Source: Bacteroidota bacterium
GTDB lineage: Bacteria; Bacteroidota; Bacteroidia; J057; JAJTIE01
Length of the DNA: 64,000 nt
Assembly: GCA_021300195.1 (NCBI GenBank)
Contig: JAJTIE010000005.1
Span: 62,001 to 126,000, forward strand
Direction: 5' to 3'
Shown in pieces: positions 384 to 31,492 of the stretch; position 1 is the first letter of the stretch; every line of letters starts with the position of its first letter. The notes beneath the pieces were generated by a model. It did not search any database. It saw nothing but the letters and a program-made list of their open reading frames with translations, and was not told where the DNA came from. Made by a program: the position numbers and the translations under genes.

Positions 384-3300
384 ATGAAGCAAAAGAAATA
401 CTGGACCTCAGAGGCGGATCTGAACCTGGATCCGGCGGAGAAAAAGCAGCAGCAAAAGGAGTTTGCTGTAGACCCCATCGAAGAGATGCTACAGGAAAAC
501 GGCCGTAGCAGCCGCCGAGACTTCCTCAAGGTTATGGGCTTTAGCATTGGTGCCTCTGCCGTGCTGGCCGCCTGCAGCAAGAGCCCGGTTAAATACGCCC
601 TGCCCTATACCAACAAGCCTGCCGAGGTAACCCCCGGTGTGCCCAACTACTATGCCAGCACCTTCTTCGACGGTAGCGAGTATAGTAGCGTGCTGGTAAA
701 GGTGCGCGAGGGTAGGCCCATCTTCATAGAGGGGAACCCCGATAGCAGCATTACCCAGGGGAGCCTGGGTGCCCGGGGCAACGCCGCCGTGCTGGACCTA
801 TACGACGGACACCGGATACAACGCCCACAGACCGTGACTGGCGCAGCTGGCTGGGATGAGGCAGACAAGCTGCTAAAAGAACGCTTCAAAGACCTGAGCA
901 AGCAGGAGGCCGGTGTACGCCTGGTTACAGGCTCCATCCTTAGCCCCAGCACCTTGCAGCTGATCGCCGAGTTTGGCAGCAAGCAGGGCAACTTCAAGCA
1001 CATAAGCTACGATGCGGACAGTGCCAGCGGCATTATCCTGGCGCACGAGCGGCACTACGGACAGCGCATGCTGCCCCGCTTCCGCTTCGACAAGGCAGAG
1101 ATGATCGTGGGCATAAACGCCGACTTTTTGGGCACCTGGATCTCTCCCATCGAGTTTACCCGCCAGTACGTGCAGCACCGCACGCCCAGTAAGGATAACG
1201 TGAAGATGAGCCGGCACGTGCAGATAGAAAGCACCATGACCCTAACGGGTGCCAATGCCGATCAGCGTCTACCCATCAAACCCAGTATGGAGGGTGCCCA
1301 TGTGCTGGCCCTGCACGACGCACTAGCCGCCCTGGCGGGCCGCACTGCCTACGGCGGCGGACAGCAGCTACCTGGCAAGTACGAGGAAAAACTGGCTGCC
1401 GAGCTGTGGGCACAGCGGGCCAAGGCCCTGGTGGTGTGTGGCAGCAATGACGCTGCCGTGCAGCAGCTGGTTATCGCCATCAACCAGATGCTGGGCAGCT
1501 ATGGCACTACCATCGATGCCAGCAGTCCCAGCTACCTGCGCCAGGGCGTAGACACAGATTTTCAGGCGCTGATCCAGGAAATGGAGCAGGGCAAGGTGGG
1601 TGCGGTTCTCTTTTACGACTGCAACCCCGCCTACACCTACGCTTTCCCTGCTCAGTTTGCCTCTGCGCTGAAGAAGGTGAAGACCCGTGTGGCCCTCACA
1701 GCCAGCGAAAATGAAACCTCGGCGCTCTGCACCTACAAGCTGCCCACCCCCCACTGGCTGGAGAGCTGGGGAGATGCCCAGCCCTACAAGGGCTATTACA
1801 GCCTGCAGCAGCCCACTATACCCAGGCTGTACGACAGCCGCTCGTTTCAGGATGTGCTGCTGACCTGGATGGACAGCGACAAAGACTACCTGGCTTACCT
1901 GCAAAACTTCTGGAAGAGCCAGCTCTTCTACGGCCAGGCGGAAGGCTTGTCTGCCGATCAGTTCTGGGTCAAGTCGCTAGAAAAAGGCGTTTTTGAGCAG
2001 CCGAATGAAAAGCCAGCGACGCTGACCGCTGTGGATGCAGACCTGGCCCCCGTGGCTGCCCAGGTGGCCGCCGACTACGCGGGCAAAAAAGGGAGCCTGG
2101 ATGTATACCTGTACCGGAAAATAGGCATCGGTGCCGGTGTGCTGGCCAATGTGCCCTGGCTGCAAGAGCTGCCCGACCCCATTACCAAGGCCACCTGGGA
2201 TAACTACGTGGCTGTTTCGCCCAAGATGGCCAGCGACAAGGGCCTGAAAACCGGCGACATCGTAAAACTGGAGGTTGGCCGCCTGGCTGTGAAGCTCCCC
2301 GTGCTGGTTCAGCCGGGTGTACAGCCTGAAACCGTGGCTGTGGCCGTGGGCTATGGCCGTACCGTGGTAGGCAAGGGCGGCTATAAGATAGGCCAGAACG
2401 TGTGGCCCGCCACTACGCTGAAGGCGGGGCAAGCACTGAGCTATGCCACAGGTGCCAAGCTAAGCGCCACGGGCGACTTCGAGGAGCTTGCACTGGCACA
2501 AACCAGCCTGACTGCCATGGATCGCCCCATTATCCATGAGACGACCCTCAGCCACTTTACCGAGTATACCACCGAGCTGCAGCATGAGCGCAGCATCCTG
2601 AAGGAGCACCTGGTAAACCTGTACCCCCTGCACGAGCGGGGTGGACACCGCTGGGCCATGGCTATCGACCTGAACAAGTGTACAGGCTGCGGCTCTTGCG
2701 TAGTGGCCTGCCAGGCCGAAAACAACATACCCGTGGTGGGCAAAGACGAAGTACGCCGCCGCCGCGAGCTGCACTGGATGCGCATAGACCGCTACTACAG
2801 CATAAAGGATGAGAATGCCGACTTTAAGGACAAGGAAATACCTGCCGACCAGCCGGACGTTGTCTTCCAGCCTATGCTGTGCCAGCACTGCGATAACGCC
2901 CCCTGCGAGAACGTGTGCCCCGTACTAGCTACCGTGCACAGCAGCGAGGGCCTAAACCAGCAAGCCTACAACCGCTGCTTCGGTACCCGCTACTGCGCAA
3001 ACAACTGCCCCTACAAGGTGCGCCGTTTCAACTGGCTGGACTATACCGACCCTGAAAAGTTCACCTACAACCCCGTAGATAACCTGGGCCGGATGGTGCT
3101 GAACCCCGATGTAACGGTGCGTGCCCGTGGTGTGATGGAGAAATGCTCCTTCTGCGCCCAGCGCCTGCAGGCTGGCAAGCTGGCCGCCAAGATGGAACAG
3201 CGCAAGCTGACCGATGCCGATGTGCAACCCGCATGCGCCAAAACCTGCCCCGCAGGTGCCATCGTGTTTGGCGACCTGAACGATAAGGAAAGCACCATCA

Positions 3301-3419
3301 GCAAATACTACGAGGATGAGCGTACCTACTTCGCCCTCGAGGAGATCAAAGTACTCCCCTCTGTAGCCTACAAAGTGGTGGTGCGCAACCGTAAAGAAGA
3401 AGAAACCGCTAAAGCATAA
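384..3419 (+). CDS. actB: Alternative complex III subunit B, molybdopterin-oxidoreductase-like plus Fe-S domain fusion
   Basis: 1011 residues. A twin-arginine type signal near residues 47-70 ([14 protein letters not shown], then a hydrophobic stretch ending LAAC) suggests Tat export with a lipobox-like Cys. Residues ~75-740 resemble the molybdopterin oxidoreductase fold; in this family that half is known not to carry the cofactor. Residues ~755-1000 are a four-cluster ferredoxin domain, with [37 protein letters not shown] and [10 protein letters not shown] visible. ActB carries the Fe-S wire of the quinol:electron-acceptor oxidoreductase. It starts 19 nt after actA and ends 5 nt before actC, so it is in one operon. 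The ActB1-ActB2 fusion is the usual state in this complex. Confidence 0.95.
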
Positions 3420-3424
3420 CGCCT

Positions 3425-4861
3425 ATGTACGATTCCCCCATACGCGAACCCCTCGTTACCGGCAAGAAAGACTATGCCAAGGTAACCGAGGATATATGCC
3501 GCCCCATACACAGCAAGCCTAGCAAGGAGTGGCTGCTGGGTTTTATGCTCTCTGCGGGCATAGCGGGCCTGTTTGTTATCGCCGTGGTATACACCTTCTT
3601 CACCGGCATCGGTGCCTGGGGGCTGAATAAGACCATTGGCTGGGCCTTTGATATTACCAACTTCGTTTTCTGGATCGGTATTGGCCACGCCGGTACGCTG
3701 ATCTCGGCTATTCTGCTGCTTTTCCGCCAGAAGTGGCGCACCGGTGTAAACCGCGCCGCAGAGGCCATGACCATCTTTGCGGTTATCATTGCCGCCCAGT
3801 TCCCACTGGTGCACATGGGCCGCCCCTGGCTGGCTTACTGGATCTTCCCGCTGCCAAACTTCCACGGCCCCCTGTGGGTAAACTTCAACTCGCCGCTGCT
3901 GTGGGACGTGTTTGCCATCTCTACGTACTTCACCGTATCGCTGCTCTTCTGGTACATCGGCCTTATCCCCGATTTTGCCACGGTACGCGATCGCGTAAAG
4001 GGTCCGTTTGCAAAGAAGGCCTACACTGCACTCAGCTTTGGCTGGGTGGGTAGTGCCAAGGCTTGGCAGCGCTTCGAGTCTATCTCGCTCATCCTGGCGG
4101 GTGTGGCTACCCCGCTGGTACTTTCGGTGCACACCATCGTATCTATGGACTTTGCCACCTCGGTTATCCCCGGCTGGCATACCACCATCTTCCCGCCCTA
4201 CTTTGTGGCTGGTGCCATCTTCTCTGGCTTTGGTATGGTGCTTACCCTCATGGTCATCACCCGCCGGGTGCTGGGCCTGCAGGACTACATCACCATCGGC
4301 CACCTGGAAGCCATGGCCAAGGTAACCCTGGCTACCGGCATGATGGTGGGCGTGGCCTACAGCACCGAGTTTTTTATAGCCGTCTACAGCGGCAGCGAAT
4401 ACGAGGGCTACGCCTTTATGAACCGTGCCTTTGGCCCCTACGGCTGGTCGTACTTCATCATGTTTGGCTGCAACGTGTTTACCCCCCAGCTCTTCTGGTT
4501 CAAAAAGATACGGACTAACCCGACAGCCATCTTCATCCTCTCTATCTTTGTGAACATCGGCATGTGGTTTGAGCGGTTTGTAATTATCGTAACCTCGCTG
4601 CACCGAGACTACCTGCCCTCCAGCTGGGCCATGTATACGCCCACACTTACCGAGGCTGCCATTCTGCTGGGTACGTTCGGGGTATTCTTTACCCTCTTCC
4701 TCCTCTTTGTGCGCACCTTCCCGGTAATCGCCATTGCCGAGGTAAAGAGTGTAATGAGGGCCTCCAGCGATACACACCGTTCCGCTGCCGAAAAGCCGGC
4801 AGAGATACAGTGGCAGCAGGGCCCCGTACATGAACCCACCCACGAACCCGTACACGCATAA
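3425..4861 (+). CDS. actC: Alternative complex III subunit C, NrfD-like membrane protein
   Basis: 478 residues with about ten hydrophobic segments, typical of the NrfD/PsrC family membrane subunit that binds quinol. It has a hydrophilic N-terminus (~35 residues) and a His/Glu/Pro-rich cytoplasmic-type tail of ~45 residues ([10 protein letters not shown] at the end). In alternative complex III, ActC and ActF are the two homologous integral subunits, and ActC contacts the Fe-S subunit ActB. The gene lies 5 nt after actB and 11 nt before actD, consistent with translational coupling in the act operon. A 495-codon open frame runs antisense through the whole gene and is a coding-bias shadow. Confidence 0.95.
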
Positions 4862-4872
4862 GGTACTGCATC

Positions 4873-5409
4873 ATGGCTAAGGAAAAAAAGAACTTTCTGA
4901 TAGGCGTCTACGACGACGACGACAAGATCCTCCACGCCGTATCGTCCGTACAGCGGCAGGGCATTTCTATCGAGGACTGCTTCACGCCCTTTCCGGTGCA
5001 CGGCCTGGACCATGCCCTGGGGCTAAAGGAGTCGCGCATTCCCTCCGTAGGCTTCATCGGGGGTGCGCTGGGTACGGTTACCGCCCTTTCCATGATGGTG
5101 TATATGTACACCATCGACTGGCCGGTGGATATTGGCGGTAAGCCGAATCTGCCCTTCCCCAGCTTTATCCCCATCACCTTTGAGCTGACCGTACTGTTTT
5201 GCTCATTGGCTATGGTATTCACCTATCTGTACATAAACCGCCTCTCGCCAGCGCAGAAGCCCGAGCTATGCGACCCTAGGCAGACAGACGACCGCTTTGT
5301 GATTCGGATAGAGGCAGGCGATGCCGCCCATAATCAAAAGGTACTCGCTGCCCTGCGGGCATCTGGTGCCATAGAAGTACGTGAACAAGAAATGACGGTA
5401 CGAGTATGA
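4873..5409 (+). CDS. actD: Alternative complex III subunit D (DUF3341)
   Basis: 178 residues. The N-terminal ~80 residues are soluble and start with the typical DUF3341 pattern (GVYDDDDKILHAV). Two membrane segments follow at ~residues 55-75 and 95-120, joined by a short loop containing PSFIPITFELTVL, then a soluble tail. ActD is the small membrane-anchored subunit beside ActC in alternative complex III. Its stop codon overlaps the actE start (ATGA at 5406-5409), a sign of coupled translation. Confidence 0.93.
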   Translation: MAKEKKNFLIGVYDDDDKILHAVSSVQRQGISIEDCFTPFPVHGLDHALGLKESRIPSVGFIGGALGTVTALSMMVYMYTIDWPVDIGGKPNLPFPSFIPITFELTVLFCSLAMVFTYLYINRLSPAQKPELCDPRQTDDRFVIRIEAGDAAHNQKVLAALRASGAIEVREQEMTVRV

Positions 5410-5987
5410 AAACCTTGATCGCGCTTATCTCGCTGGGCCTGCTGGCCGGGTGTTCTGACAATCGGAGCACGGGCATTGAGTACGCGCCCCAGATGTATCA
5501 TTCCATTCCGGTGGAGCCCTATAGCCAGTCGGATTACAACGCTGTTAACCTCGAGCACTTTAAGGACGGCCGCAATGTGGTTATGCCCGTAGCCGGTACG
5601 GTAGCACGCGGAAAGGCCAGCCTGTATTATCCCTATGAGAATACGGAGGAAGGTTATCAGCGTGCGGGCGAGGAGCTGAAGAATCCCTTTACCCCTACGC
5701 AAGAGGTACTGGCCACAGCCAAAACCCTGTATCAGGTAAACTGCCAGCACTGCCACGGCGAAAATGGCGACGGCAAAGGGCCCCTGAACAAGAGCAAGCA
5801 ATACGAGGACCGGGTGCCCGACTATCGACTCCGGCTGCCTACCATCAATGAGGGCAAGGCTTTCCACAGCATTACCTATGGCAGGAATATTATGGGCGCA
5901 CATGCCTATACCCTCACACCCGAGCAGCGCTGGATGCTGGTTACCTACATCTATCAGTTTCTGGGCCCTGAGCAGGAGAAGAAATAG
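5406..5987 (+). CDS. actE: Alternative complex III subunit E, monohaem cytochrome c lipoprotein
   Basis: 193 residues. The N-terminus is a lipoprotein signal with lipobox LLAGC (Cys at residue 16), so the protein is probably membrane-anchored in the periplasm. One haem c site, CQHCH, lies near residue 116; a downstream Met in NIMGAH is a plausible sixth ligand. ActE is the monohaem cytochrome of alternative complex III that relays electrons to the terminal oxidase or a soluble carrier. The start overlaps the actD stop by 4 nt. Downstream, 65 nt separate it from actF. Confidence 0.93.
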   Translation: MKTLIALISLGLLAGCSDNRSTGIEYAPQMYHSIPVEPYSQSDYNAVNLEHFKDGRNVVMPVAGTVARGKASLYYPYENTEEGYQRAGEELKNPFTPTQEVLATAKTLYQVNCQHCHGENGDGKGPLNKSKQYEDRVPDYRLRLPTINEGKAFHSITYGRNIMGAHAYTLTPEQRWMLVTYIYQFLGPEQEKK

Positions 5988-6052
5988 ATTTGTTTGATGT
6001 TTGACAACGACGACAAGCATTTTCATTAAGCACCGCTAAAGTATTACAGACC

Positions 6053-7564
6053 ATGGGTCACGGCCATCCTTCCACATTCAAGCCTGTAGAGTACTACCGT
6101 TTCGGGGGTAAAGGCAAGCGTATCACGCTGGGTATTCTGGCATTCGGACTGCTGCTTACGGTGGTCGGGCTGCTGATTGCTGGCGGAAAGGAATATAGCA
6201 TGCACGCACCCGCCTCCAGCGGGCACGGGGATCATCATGCCGCCGCACAGCAGGCTACTGGCCACACGCCTGCAGCCTTGGTAAACCAGCATGAGCAGGC
6301 TGCGACTGCCGCTCCGGAAGATTCCGCTCAGCAGGCCGAGACACAGCAAACCACGCATGCCCCGGCAGGCACGCAGCACCCAGCTGATGCGCATGCTGCT
6401 CCGGCACAGGGCGAAACCCATGCTCACCCCTGGGAGGGCCACTACAGCTTTATCCACTCCGAAAAGGACCTGCCCACCGCTGATAAGCGATTCTTTAGCA
6501 ATCTACTGATCAACGGCTTTATCTTTACCGGCGTAGCCCTGCTGGGTCTATTCTTCATTACGGTACACCATGTGGCCAACGGCGGCTGGTATGTGCAGCT
6601 ACAGCGCATAGCCGAGAGTATGGGCTACTGGCTATTTATTGGCCCGGTTATCCTGCTTATTGTTTACTTCGTAGCCGGAGACAGCCTGTACATGTGGCTG
6701 AACCCCGAGGCAATACAAGACCCCGAGGTACGCGCACTGGTAACAGATAAGGCTGCCTGGTGGCTGTCCGATGGCTTTTTTGTTGCTCGCCACCTGGTTT
6801 TCTTCAGTTTGTGGATTCTGCTCTTCTGGCTCATCCGCCGCTCTAGCCTGCGCGAAGACACACTGGCCGGAAAGCAGAGCTGGATCCAGCGAAACAAGCT
6901 CAGTTCGATCTATATCCTGGTCTTTGCCCTTACGTTCTCGGCTGCTAGCTGGGACTGGCTGATGAGTGTAGAAACTACCTGGTTCTCCACCATGTTTGCC
7001 GTACGCACCTTTTCCAGTGCTTGGGTTATGGCGCTGGCCATCATTACCCTGGTGGCAGTTTTTCTGAAGCAGGCAGGCTATATGCCTACCCTCAGCCCCA
7101 GTATTTTTCATGACTTGGGCAAATATCTCTTCGGCTTCAGCATCTTCTGGACCTACATCTGGTTCTGCGAGTTCCTGCTAATCTGGTATGCGAACATACC
7201 CGAGGAGGGCATCTACTTCTATAATCGTTTGGGCGACTACGGCTTTAGCTTTGGGCTAATGGCCATTCTCAACTTCCTGCTCCCCTTCCTGGTGCTGATG
7301 ACCAACCAGAGCAAGCGCAGCCTGCCTACCCTCGTATTCGTATCCTGCGTGCTACTGCTGGGCCACTGGGTAGACTTTTACCTGATGGTTATGCCCGGCT
7401 CAATGGGCCCATTCGGTGAGATAGGCCTGCTGGAGCTGGGAATGTTTATCACCTTTCTGGGTGCTTTCCTCTTCGTGCTGGGCACCTTCCTGGCCAAGAA
7501 GCCCCTCATGCCCAAGAATCATCCTTACCTGGAGGAGTCTCTGGGCCACCACTACGATATCTAG
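6053..7564 (+). CDS. actF: Alternative complex III subunit F, NrfD-like membrane protein with His/Ala-rich insert
   Basis: 503 residues. A first hydrophobic segment (~residues 25-45) is followed by a low-complexity, His/Ala/Gln-rich hydrophilic stretch (~residues 48-130). About nine further membrane segments run to residue ~485. ActF is the second NrfD-like subunit of alternative complex III. The act operon stops here: a perfect terminator follows, and no cytochrome oxidase genes are adjacent, unlike many Bacteroidota in which cox genes follow. The His-rich insert is longer than I would expect for this subunit, and its role is unknown. Confidence 0.93.
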   Translation: MGHGHPSTFKPVEYYRFGGKGKRITLGILAFGLLLTVVGLLIAGGKEYSMHAPASSGHGDHHAAAQQATGHTPAALVNQHEQAATAAPEDSAQQAETQQTTHAPAGTQHPADAHAAPAQGETHAHPWEGHYSFIHSEKDLPTADKRFFSNLLINGFIFTGVALLGLFFITVHHVANGGWYVQLQRIAESMGYWLFIGPVILLIVYFVAGDSLYMWLNPEAIQDPEVRALVTDKAAWWLSDGFFVARHLVFFSLWILLFWLIRRSSLREDTLAGKQSWIQRNKLSSIYILVFALTFSAASWDWLMSVETTWFSTMFAVRTFSSAWVMALAIITLVAVFLKQAGYMPTLSPSIFHDLGKYLFGFSIFWTYIWFCEFLLIWYANIPEEGIYFYNRLGDYGFSFGLMAILNFLLPFLVLMTNQSKRSLPTLVFVSCVLLLGHWVDFYLMVMPGSMGPFGEIGLLELGMFITFLGAFLFVLGTFLAKKPLMPKNHPYLEESLGHHYDI

Positions 7565-27918: not shown

Positions 27919-29577
27919 ATGAAAGTAACTTTACAACAAGCCCTTTTGCTCCTCCTACTCCCGGTATGGGGTTTTTCTCAGCCCGACTATGGCGATATCA
28001 TCTGGAAGCGCCGTTTGGGCGGATCGGGTACACCCAGCTTTGAAGCTTTTGGAGACAGGCCCACAGCGCTCACCGTATCTGGGGGGTTTACCTATGTGGC
28101 TGGCTATAGCAATAGCAACGACGGGGACTTTCCAGGCAATCGGGGTGAGGTGGATGCCTGGGTTGTGAAGCTGGCCCGAGACGGAAGCGTCCTGTGGAAA
28201 TATCAGTTCGGGGGCAACGCATTCGAAACCGTGCGCGACATTACCGTAATGCCCAATGGCGATGTGGTGGTGGTAGGCGAGACCTTTAGCTCGAACCTTT
28301 TCGGCTACCGTTCTTTCACCGATGCTTTCGTACTGAGGCTAACCCCCAATGGCCAGGAGGTGTACACCAAGCTTATAAACGGCACGGGGCTTGCTGAGAC
28401 CTTGAATACGTCGGCTTTCGAGTACTTTCAGGGTGTAGACACAGTAGGAACGGAATTGGTGGCCGTAGGCAGAACGAGTAATTTCTATCTTAACTCAGTG
28501 CAAGACACCTGGGATACGCTGAGCGGTTCTCTGGATGCCTGGATCCATCGCCTGGATGCTTCGGGCAACTATCGTTGGCACAATCGGGTTTTCCGGAACG
28601 ATACCCTCAAGAATTTGTCACAGGTGGCAGGTGCAGGGGGCATATCGGCGATCATAAATCGATTCAATGATGTAGTGCACCTGAACCGGGGTGGCTATGT
28701 GGCAGTGGGCGATGCCGCTTTCTTTGGCGATAGCAACGTAGGCGATGCTTATCTGGCTCGTTTCGATGAGGCGGGAGACACGGTGTGGACCCGGCTTCTA
28801 GGTGGCGCGCAGGGGGATGATGGCCTTAGGATTGAGGAAACATCCGATGGGAACGTGATCGTGCTGATGGAGCGCCGCAAGCCTAAAGCCGGAAGCCTTC
28901 CGGAGCCCGACCTGTGGCTGGCCAAGATAAACACGACCACTGGTAGCACCATGTGGGAGCGCATAGTGGGGTCCAATTTTATAGACAGCCCACAGGACAT
29001 TATACTTGCTGCTGATACCATCGTGGCGGTTGTGGGCTGGGAAGACGTAGATCAGGTAGACTTAGCTACCGGCTACGACGGATTTGTGGACCGGTACGAT
29101 GCCCGAACAGGAGCATCCATTGGTAGCCGCAGGCTGTTTGGTACCTCTGGTAAGGATGACCGTGCCTATGCAGTGGGTTATGATGTACAGACCGATGATT
29201 ATGTGATTGCCTGCACCTCCATTGGCACCAGCAGCTTTTTCCCCGAGAATAGTGGTGGAACAGACTGGTGGATTATCCGCATGGCAGGAGACAATAGTGC
29301 CTTCCAGCAGTGGGTGAGCCGCGCCGACGGGCAGCCGGGCATCGCCCATGGCGAGGAGCTGCGGGCGTGGCCCAACCCGGCCCGTGGTAGCCTGAGCCTG
29401 AACCGCACAGACCTGGACTATGTAGAGCTATACAACCTGGCAGGCATGCGCGTGCAGCGTTGGGACGGTGCCGCCCTGCCTCAGCAGCTGGACCTCTCGG
29501 GCTTAGGTGCCGGTATGTATCTGCTGAAGGCCGAAAAGGGCAGCCAGTCCTGGAACCAAAAGATAGTGATCCAATAG
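27919..29577 (+). CDS. T9SS-targeted beta-propeller-like secreted protein (copy A)
   Basis: 552 residues. Signal peptide MKVTLQQALLLLLLPVWGFS. The body consists of repeated ~50-residue beta units of the kind GDIIWKRRLGGSG, DAWVVKLARDGSVLWKYQFG and DLWLAKINTTTGSTMWERI, reminiscent of SBBP-type beta-propeller repeats. The C-terminus is a type A sorting domain (LRAWPNPARGSLSL, ending WNQKIVIQ) that directs type IX secretion and surface anchoring. No enzyme signature is seen; adhesive or structural roles are common for such proteins. Copy B follows 158 nt downstream and is about 70% similar overall, with long near-identical DNA segments. Confidence 0.85.
   Translation: MKVTLQQALLLLLLPVWGFSQPDYGDIIWKRRLGGSGTPSFEAFGDRPTALTVSGGFTYVAGYSNSNDGDFPGNRGEVDAWVVKLARDGSVLWKYQFGGNAFETVRDITVMPNGDVVVVGETFSSNLFGYRSFTDAFVLRLTPNGQEVYTKLINGTGLAETLNTSAFEYFQGVDTVGTELVAVGRTSNFYLNSVQDTWDTLSGSLDAWIHRLDASGNYRWHNRVFRNDTLKNLSQVAGAGGISAIINRFNDVVHLNRGGYVAVGDAAFFGDSNVGDAYLARFDEAGDTVWTRLLGGAQGDDGLRIEETSDGNVIVLMERRKPKAGSLPEPDLWLAKINTTTGSTMWERIVGSNFIDSPQDIILAADTIVAVVGWEDVDQVDLATGYDGFVDRYDARTGASIGSRRLFGTSGKDDRAYAVGYDVQTDDYVIACTSIGTSSFFPENSGGTDWWIIRMAGDNSAFQQWVSRADGQPGIAHGEELRAWPNPARGSLSLNRTDLDYVELYNLAGMRVQRWDGAALPQQLDLSGLGAGMYLLKAEKGSQSWNQKIVIQ
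28671..28956 (+). repeat. Near-identical segment shared with copy B
   Basis: 286 nt that differ at about seven positions from 30467-30752 (constant offset of 1796), while flanking parts of the two genes are clearly more diverged. Confidence 0.85.
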
Positions 29578-29735
29578 AGTAATGGCTTGGGTGCGTACTG
29601 TACCCAAAGCGCAGCCCCAGATCTCGGGTTAATAGTTATCGTGGTATACTCCCACAGTAAAGTGTAATTTAGATGAGGACTATCTTGCTCTAGCAAGAAT
29701 TTGATAGATTACACCGGATTAAAAATAAAAAGTAT

Positions 29736-31370
29736 ATGGTTACGCTTCTACGTATTTTCTTCTTGTTTACACTTCTTTCTGGTACCGTGCTTGCACAAGG
29801 CTATGGTGATATTATCTGGAAAAAAAATCTTGGTGGTGCTGGTTTTGAAGAGCCCACAGATGTACTTACCTCGGGTGGCTGGACGTATGTGCTGGGTTTT
29901 AGCAACAGCAACTCGGGCGATTTTTCGGTGAACAATGGATCTTCAGATCTATGGTTGTACAAGCTGGATAGAGCCGGAAACAAGAGCTGGGCTTATAATT
30001 TTGGAGGTAGTGGCTTCGATTTGGGCCAAAAGCTGCTGCTGATGCCCGATGGGGGCATAGCTGTAGTGGGCCTTACCACCAGTACTAACCTGCCAGGCTT
30101 TCGCAGTGCAGTAGACGGGTTGTATATCCGGCTAAGCCCGCAGGGTAATGTGCTGCTGGACACCCTAATAAACGGTGTGGGGTTTGCCGAGCAATTTGTT
30201 GCAGCCTCTCGAGAGGATCTTTTTGGTGCAGATACCATTGGCAACACAGGTGTTGTAGTGGTGGGCCAGACTAACGGGACCTTTTTGTACGGCCCGCAAG
30301 ACCCAAGTGATACCCTAAGCGGATCAGTTGATGCCCTGATCATGAAGCTCACGAATGCCGCCCAATATCAGTGGCACAATCGGGTTTTTCGGAACGACAC
30401 CCTGAAGAACCTGCCGCAGGTAGCATCTCAGGGCGGTATATCGGCTATTCTTAACCGTTTCAAGGGTGTAGTGCACCTGAACCGGGGTGGCTATGTGGCA
30501 GTGGGCGATGCCGCTTTCTTTGGCGATAGCAACGTAGGCGATGCTTATCTGGTTCGTTTCAATGAGGCGGGAGACACGGTGTGGACCCGGCTTCTAGGTG
30601 GCGCGCAGGGGGATGATGGCCTTAGGATTGAGGAAACATCCGATGGGAACGTGATCGTGCTGATGGAGCGCCGCAAGCCCAAGGCCGGAAACTTTCCGGA
30701 GCCCGACCTGTGGCTGGCCAAGATAAACACGACCAGTGGTAGCACCATGTGGCAACGCATTTTGGGTACAGGCTTTGTAGAGAGTCCGCAAGACATGGTA
30801 CTTGTTGCGGATACCATTGTGGCAGTAGTGGGCTGGCAGGACGTAGATGAGGCAGGCGTGGCTACCGGTTACGACGGATTTCTGGATCGGTACGATGCCC
30901 GCACGGGCGCTACTATTGGCAGCCGCAGGCTGTTCGGGGCTTCGGGTAAGGAAGATCGCGCCTATTCGGTCAGCTACGATAACCAGACCGATGACTACAT
31001 CATTGCGTGCGGCTCCATTGGCACAAGTACCTTTTTCCCTGAGACTAAGGGCGAAACAGACTGGTGGATTATCCGCATGGCAGGAGACAACAGCGCCTTC
31101 CAGCAGTGGGTGAGCCGCGCCGATGGGCAGCCTGGCGTCGCCCAGGGCGAGGAGCTGCGGGCGTGGCCCAACCCGGCCCGTGGCAGTCTGAGTCTGAACC
31201 GCACAGACCTGGACTATGTAGAGCTGTACAACCTGGCAGGTATGCGCGTGCAGCGCTGGGAGGGTGCCGGGCATCGGCAGCTGGACCTCTCGGGCCTGGG
31301 TGCCGGTATGTACCTGCTGAAGGCTGCAAAAGGCAGCCAGTCTTGGAACCAAAAGATAGTGATCCAATAG
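29736..31370 (+). CDS. T9SS-targeted beta-propeller-like secreted protein (copy B)
   Basis: 544 residues, paralogue of the gene just upstream. Signal peptide MVTLLRIFFLFTLLSGTVLA, then QGYGDIIWKKNLGG. It has the same order of beta repeats and the same sorting domain, ending WNQKIVIQ exactly as in copy A. The N-terminal half differs freely; the C-terminal half includes 286 nt at ~97% identity and a sorting-domain segment at ~94%. That pattern fits duplication followed by gene conversion or a recent partial recombination. The gap before it (158 nt) has no exact TAnnTTTG box. Confidence 0.85.
   Translation: MVTLLRIFFLFTLLSGTVLAQGYGDIIWKKNLGGAGFEEPTDVLTSGGWTYVLGFSNSNSGDFSVNNGSSDLWLYKLDRAGNKSWAYNFGGSGFDLGQKLLLMPDGGIAVVGLTTSTNLPGFRSAVDGLYIRLSPQGNVLLDTLINGVGFAEQFVAASREDLFGADTIGNTGVVVVGQTNGTFLYGPQDPSDTLSGSVDALIMKLTNAAQYQWHNRVFRNDTLKNLPQVASQGGISAILNRFKGVVHLNRGGYVAVGDAAFFGDSNVGDAYLVRFNEAGDTVWTRLLGGAQGDDGLRIEETSDGNVIVLMERRKPKAGNFPEPDLWLAKINTTSGSTMWQRILGTGFVESPQDMVLVADTIVAVVGWQDVDEAGVATGYDGFLDRYDARTGATIGSRRLFGASGKEDRAYSVSYDNQTDDYIIACGSIGTSTFFPETKGETDWWIIRMAGDNSAFQQWVSRADGQPGVAQGEELRAWPNPARGSLSLNRTDLDYVELYNLAGMRVQRWEGAGHRQLDLSGLGAGMYLLKAAKGSQSWNQKIVIQ
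30467..30752 (+). repeat. Near-identical segment shared with copy A
   Basis: Partner of 28671-28956; see that entry for the comparison. Confidence 0.85.
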
Positions 31371-31453: not shown

Positions 31454-31492
31454 AAAGCAATTATCCAGTGCACAGCACTGGATAATTGCTTT
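31454..31492. terminator. Bidirectional terminator with a perfect 18-bp stem
   Basis: AAAGCAATTATCCAGTGC (31454-31471) and its exact reverse complement (31475-31492) flank a 3-nt ACA loop. It sits between two convergent genes, 84 nt after one stop and 36 nt after the other. The A/T-rich outer ends supply short U-runs in both directions. Confidence 0.8.

Follow-up and report, generated by a model that had tools for sequence, protein, structure and literature searches.

The stretch of DNA analysed (the window, 64,000 nucleotides) contains two adjacent genes, A and B, both on the + strand and separated by 158 nt, whose proteins show 71% amino acid identity. The genes, the segments distinguished within them and a nearby palindrome are the following:

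27919..29577, + strand: gene A, an ORF of 552 aa with a signal-peptide-like start, a probable seven-bladed beta-propeller and a T9SS type A sorting domain
27919..28662, + strand: N-terminal part of A, anciently diverged, with the signal peptide and blades 1-3; 52 of the 115 same-amino-acid codons in 27931-28662 are identical
28663..28962, + strand: putatively converted tract in A, about blades 4-5, delimited by segmentation breakpoints; 85 of 87 same-amino-acid codons identical, dS 0.042
28663..28881, + strand: core of the tract in A, without synonymous differences
28963..29256, + strand: diverged stretch of A between the tract and the C-terminal block
29257..29577, + strand: C-terminal block of A, with the linker and the sorting domain; 73 of 88 codons identical
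29736..31370, + strand: gene B, an ORF of 544 aa that is paralogous to A, in tandem with it, and carries the same sorting domain
30459..30758, + strand: matching putatively converted tract in B, at an offset of 1796 from A
31053..31370, + strand: C-terminal block of B
31454..31492, no strand: 39-nt palindrome (hairpin), a self-complementary blastn match of 92% that is also visible in the sequence

The initial annotation had described A and B as tandem T9SS paralogues, and both ORFs show a sorting domain above the cut-offs of TIGR04183 (T9SS type A sorting domain; 36.7 bits in A and 37.8 bits in B, cut-off 23) and PF18962 (35.9 bits in each, cut-off 27). The N-terminus of both proteins, judged by eye from the translations, is signal-peptide-like, and their body shows a repeated beta-strand pattern. 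The closest NCBIfam likeness of the propeller part is NF047494, the SBBP propeller family of the LipL53 lipoproteins, with 48 and 38.9 bits in A and B. Both differ from these lipoproteins in their score, far under the family cut-off of 400 bits, and in the T9SS sorting domain at their end, and because of this ending they are not filed in the NF047494 equivalog. The AlphaFold2 model was obtained with a two-sequence input and has a low confidence (pLDDT 57.6); it can be read as seven blades of about four strands each, followed by a C-terminal domain, with approximate blade limits set by ourselves. Its top Foldseek matches are structures of CylK, which we take to be a propeller, with TM 0.53-0.57 by query length. 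A and B are probably secreted or surface-bound propellers exported via T9SS and belonging to an unnamed family.

Eight neighbouring genes were scanned with Pfam, and no recombinase or mobile gene was found among them: they encode a thiamine-phosphate synthase, Fur, CrcB, an L,D-transpeptidase, a desaturase, a class II tRNA synthetase and a DUF4625 protein, and one has no match. No edges of the duplication were found outside the ORFs, where the 158-nt upstream and downstream flanks are no more alike than shuffled sequences (97 and 57 of 200 shuffles, respectively, reach the score). The palindrome is located 3' of B, between convergent genes and outside the mosaic.

Orthologues were searched in family, order and class genome sets that overlap and that each contain the own genome. 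The family search shows a full-length match in one of two genomes, the own genome only, and in the order search (22 genomes including the own) the other matches listed cover no more than 144 of 553 positions. The class search of 395 genomes shows a full-length match in the own genome only (E <= 1e-22), with three candidates per genome scored among the matches listed, a depth at which weak relatives would be missed. In a search of 40 genomes at least 38, the own counted, have some match at E <= 0.001, and those of the other genomes are partial and repeat-level. Scans of genome contigs confirmed no relative within their scope, outside which near records may fall.

Synonymous divergence along A and B

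The codon comparison is limited to positions with the same degenerate amino acid in A and B, the expected number of identical codons is that given by codon usage alone at saturation, and dS was calculated per segment by the Nei-Gojobori method. Along their length, the two genes show a sharp-edged mosaic of synonymous divergence. In 27919-28566, 39 of 90 codons are identical (39.9 expected) and dS is about 2.0, a saturated value with a wide error and a lower bound of 1.32; in 28567-28662, 13 of 25 codons are identical (11.4 expected) and dS is about 1.5, with a lower bound of 0.59. At 28663 the pattern changes: in the core (28663-28881) all 67 codons are identical, with 29.7 expected, and dS is 0.00 (0 of 55.7 sites), and in the whole tract (28663-28962) 85 of 87 are identical, with 38.4 expected. 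Divergence returns in 28963-29256, where 42 of 72 codons are identical (31.7 expected) and dS is 0.92 [0.57-1.65], and takes an intermediate value in the C-terminal block, where 73 of 88 are identical in 29257-29577 (40.3 expected) and dS for 29257-29574 is 0.27 [0.14-0.46], with 17 synonymous differences in 74.7 sites. The tract and the adjoining stretch (85/87 versus 42/72) differ with a Fisher p of 1.7e-10. The longest run of identical codons, 67, is reached in none of 20,000 permutations, whether these are made over the whole gene, only from 28564 on or only within 28564-29254. Nucleotide identity changes from 41% in the signal peptide and 51-58% in blades 1-3 to 89-91% in blades 4-5, 79-80% in blades 6-7 and 92% in the linker and C-terminal domain, and bears out the earlier remark that the N-terminal halves are far more diverged.

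Inside the tract, 28671-28956 and 30467-30752 differ at exactly 7 of 286 positions, as the initial annotation had counted. These differences are C/T, G/A, T/C, A/G, G/A, C/T and C/G; they show no significant clustering within the tract (1,882 of 20,000 permutations), and the longest exact stretch common to A and B is 118 nt. Since nonsynonymous differences are present at 28757, 28765, 28895, 28897 and 28940, the tract cannot count as a pristine copy. The assembly contains no third copy of this block at E <= 0.001. With two copies only, the source of the tract would be the neighbouring gene, provided that the draft lacks no further copy. GC3 and codon adaptation decide for neither copy as the donor.

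A second block, about 94% identical, had also been reported, with its copy in B placed at 31050-31265. This position is one base off and gives 165 differences in 216 positions; the block itself holds, since 29255-29470 and 31051-31266 differ at 15 of 216 positions (93% identity). Downstream of 28957 the run test gives an ordinary result (the longest run is reached in 9,143 of 20,000 permutations), and the BIC slightly prefers three segments (394.5) over four with the C-terminal block split off (396.8). A Fisher test of the block against the stretch before it (73/88 versus 42/72 identical codons) gives p 0.0007, for boundaries that were themselves set from the data. No third copy of the C-terminal block was found in the genome beyond an 18-nt match. 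A separate exchange event in this block is moderately supported, and the block, which is of intermediate age, may reflect an older conversion or recurrent homogenisation.

Explanations of the mosaic

From the comparison of two sequences in one genome, the best reading of the mosaic is segmental gene conversion between A and B, which we consider very probable. Conversion or recombination within the pair had been proposed in the initial annotation and is supported by the contrast between a dS of 0 in the core and values of about 1.5-2 and 0.92 in the flanks. A and B, whose products are probably type IX-secreted beta-propellers, would have formed a tandem pair long ago and diverged to synonymous saturation; then a segment of some 220-300 bp, corresponding roughly to blades 4 and 5, would have been copied non-reciprocally from one gene to the other by homologous recombination, presumably by a RecA-type conversion. 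This copying would have reset synonymous divergence to near zero in the tract and kept the old sequence on both sides. Since old sequence is present on both sides, a double exchange, that is conversion, is needed, and neither a single crossover nor a partial duplication is sufficient; had a partial duplication occurred recently, the reset would extend over the entire C half. An earlier exchange, or a repeated one, may have left its trace in the C-terminal sorting-domain block, where dS is about 0.27.

B could instead have been assembled from modules: a C-terminal half duplicated from A would have been fused to another N-terminal propeller half, with uneven evolution of the C half afterwards. 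The protein similarity fits such an origin, being higher over the whole C half (78-92% per segment) than over the N half (27-57%), as does the finding that other secreted repeat proteins of the genome likewise have C-terminal parts in common and N-terminal parts that are diverged. However, synonymous identity is uneven inside the C half itself, by the step between the tract and the adjoining stretch given above, and the run test on the C part alone also rejects uniformity; at least one later local exchange is therefore required even under modular assembly, which as a full explanation is very unlikely. In part, the mosaic could reflect older exchange of modules with unseen paralogues. An artefact of assembly, in which the reads of both copies were mixed and the sequence of one was written into both, deserves attention in a draft of 71 contigs, at least seven of which have their start or end within a related secreted repeat gene, a sign that the assembler struggled with such genes. 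Against it, ordinary reads can bridge an exact match of no more than 118 nt, the two copies retain seven differences, and the path through a repeat used twice should be unique in a linear tandem order, so that we regard this artefact as highly improbable.

Purifying selection on functionally constrained blades 4-5, with the remainder free to diverge, agrees with the conservation of the amino acids of the tract and with its codon adaptation, slightly above that of the N half (0.58-0.60 versus 0.46-0.48). It is scarcely conceivable as the cause of 67 identical codons where codon usage predicts 29.7 of 67: constraint on the protein is ruled out because it leaves synonymous changes in place, and the C-terminal block has a higher codon adaptation (0.63-0.64) yet more synonymous differences. 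The tract shows no signal of RNA structure, and constraint at the RNA or nucleotide level was rejected, with a fold z of -0.08 and two Rfam matches at E <= 1, both under the gathering score. Antisense ORFs at 28749-29021 and 30545-30817 explain only part of the pattern, since 28671-28748 is located outside them and has zero differences, and the sequence past 28962, at their far end, is diverged.

Two further systems were considered. A diversity-generating retroelement was rejected, given that the seven differences are not confined to template adenines. For an antigenic-variation cassette, no silent truncated donors were found: the reading frame is open and complete in both copies, the only two that match.

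Known systems and other gene pairs

That paralogous surface-protein genes undergo gene conversion is established. In Helicobacter pylori, the outer-membrane paralogues babA and babB are not adjacent in their usual arrangement, and phenotypic switching is documented for them. Their products, unlike A and B, are not T9SS or propeller proteins. As proposed here for A and B, they are paralogous surface-protein genes that exchange segments by gene conversion (e.g. PMC4552749). Among T9SS cargo, the nearest precedent in the literature found is the variation of gingipain adhesin domains in P. gingivalis: for the adhesin domains of Kgp, RgpA and HagA, Dashper et al. 2017 (PMC5266723) conclude that domains have been rearranged and genetically exchanged, gene conversion is raised in the discussion, and the repeats of hagA, rgpA and kgp are said to have broken short-read assemblies. 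Like A and B, the gingipains and HagA are there T9SS-exported, CTD-bearing surface proteins with variable modules, and the evidence consists of variant mosaics among 21 strains of the pathogen (PMC5266723). The case of A and B differs: it concerns a single tract, the two paralogues are in tandem and belong to another protein family, and the evidence is a synonymous-site test within one draft genome. In the available part of PMC5808330, 'gene conversion' occurs in the reference list only, and no literature on SBBP proteins together with type IX secretion was found.

The mechanism is already known, and A and B are a further example in an uncharacterised protein family. At synonymous sites they would make a clean case of conversion between paralogues in a probable type IX cargo, from a bacterium that is not one of the well-studied oral pathogens. 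Its visible effect is the homogenisation of about two propeller blades; since the tract homogenises, the diversification of surface proteins by this recombination, suggested in the initial annotation, is a possibility, and any benefit would be conjectural. For such propeller families, exchanges of this kind can distort short-read assemblies as well as phylogenies and dN/dS scans.

Other gene pairs, picked from matches to secreted repeat or T9SS genes and covering a part of such genes, were tested in the same way. The genome shows 47 listed matches to the type A sorting domain, 45 of them above the cut-off. The permutation values are per pair and uncorrected for multiple testing, and the test rejects uniform divergence and does not alone separate conversion from older module sharing. 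The first set contains ten pairs including A/B, and in seven of them the longest run is reached by at most 15 of 5,000 permutations. These seven are A/B itself, five of the six comparisons among dispersed T9SS genes on contigs C42 (two genes), C71 and C27 (one gene each), at least three of these four genes being cut by contig ends, and the adjacent repeat-protein pair C22. The C22 pair shows a comparable step, with 10-19 of 36 codons identical in each of the first four eighths, 33 of 35 in the sixth and 34 of 35 in the seventh. No run signal was found in the adjacent T9SS subtilase pair C19 (482 of 5,000) or in the non-adjacent pair C21 (4,981 of 5,000), and in C42b-C27 the run is not significant (2,413 of 5,000), though the window-range statistic is extreme (4 of 5,000). 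In the second set, of seven pairs, only C5b-C35 reaches the level of those seven (9 of 5,000); C25-C9 and C25-C35 give 55 and 176 of 5,000, and three others 962-1,551 of 5,000. An adjacent repeat-protein pair of another genome of the class (G023), with one gene cut by a contig end, shows no signal (2,907 of 5,000). Conversion-like mosaics may recur among the secreted repeat genes of this genome. The three adjacent pairs examined in it comprise the propeller-like A/B and C22, which are mosaic, and the C19 genes, which encode subtilases with a type A sorting domain and not propellers and are not mosaic; they are too few for a rule.

A broader reading, which we hold to be rather unlikely, is that the lineage recombines many secreted repeat genes, tandem and dispersed, as an ongoing system of surface diversification. 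The gene set would include T9SS type A, type B-like and C22-like SBBP propellers. Their C-terminal and some blade modules would be continually homogenised and serve as homologous anchors, other blades would diverge and be reshuffled, and cells or strains would carry different blade combinations. As regards the sorting signals of the genes compared, the C22 pair is the best parallel to A/B yet differs from it, as A and B have a T9SS sorting domain and the C22 proteins, with 35 bits for the SBBP profile, show no recognised T9SS signal. C25 and C9 show a CHU_C (type IX signal) domain of 38.9 and 42.4 bits, above the Pfam cut-off of 27 and below the NCBIfam type B cut-off, and C9 also shows a partial TIGR04183 match.

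Adjacent pair and scattered family in the source genome

The draft source genome contains, on contig C22, two neighbouring genes of the SBBP-like repeat type, which show a mosaic of the same kind as the window pair A/B (coordinates within locus L057):

3289-5292, - strand, SBBP-like gene
5325-7256, - strand, SBBP-like gene

Their N parts share 23-52% amino acid identity, window by window, and ~500 nt encoding the C-terminal part show 82% identity (blastn), with shared codons identical up to 33/35 and 34/35. Neither protein shows a recognised T9SS signal.

A scattered family of repeat proteins (loci L059, L060, L063 and L065, on contigs C5, C25, C9 and C35) shows a common block of 0.8-1.4 kb with 71-87% identity, adjoining diverged repeats, and within this block identity ranges from about 55% up to 99% per 100-nt window. 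The C25 and C9 members contain the CHU_C type IX signal. The reading frame changes inside the repeats of two members (L059, about 4435-4480, and L063, about 4605-4745), with assembly error, decay and slippage as possible causes.

Repeats within genes and at contig ends

One propeller-repeat gene, on contig C65, contains a direct repeat:

L066 1-450, 270 nt, 94% identity, offset 180 nt

This repeat suggests homogenisation among repeats within a single gene. Since at least seven draft contigs end (L061, L062, L074) or start (L064, L065, L066, L075) inside secreted repeat genes, the number of such genes is probably underestimated, and part of their sequence probably collapsed, in the draft assembly.

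Palindrome downstream of gene B

Gene B and the L,D-transpeptidase gene are convergent, and between them is:

31454-31492, 39-nt palindrome (92%)

This palindrome, absent from the terminator scan output, is likely a terminator common to both genes.
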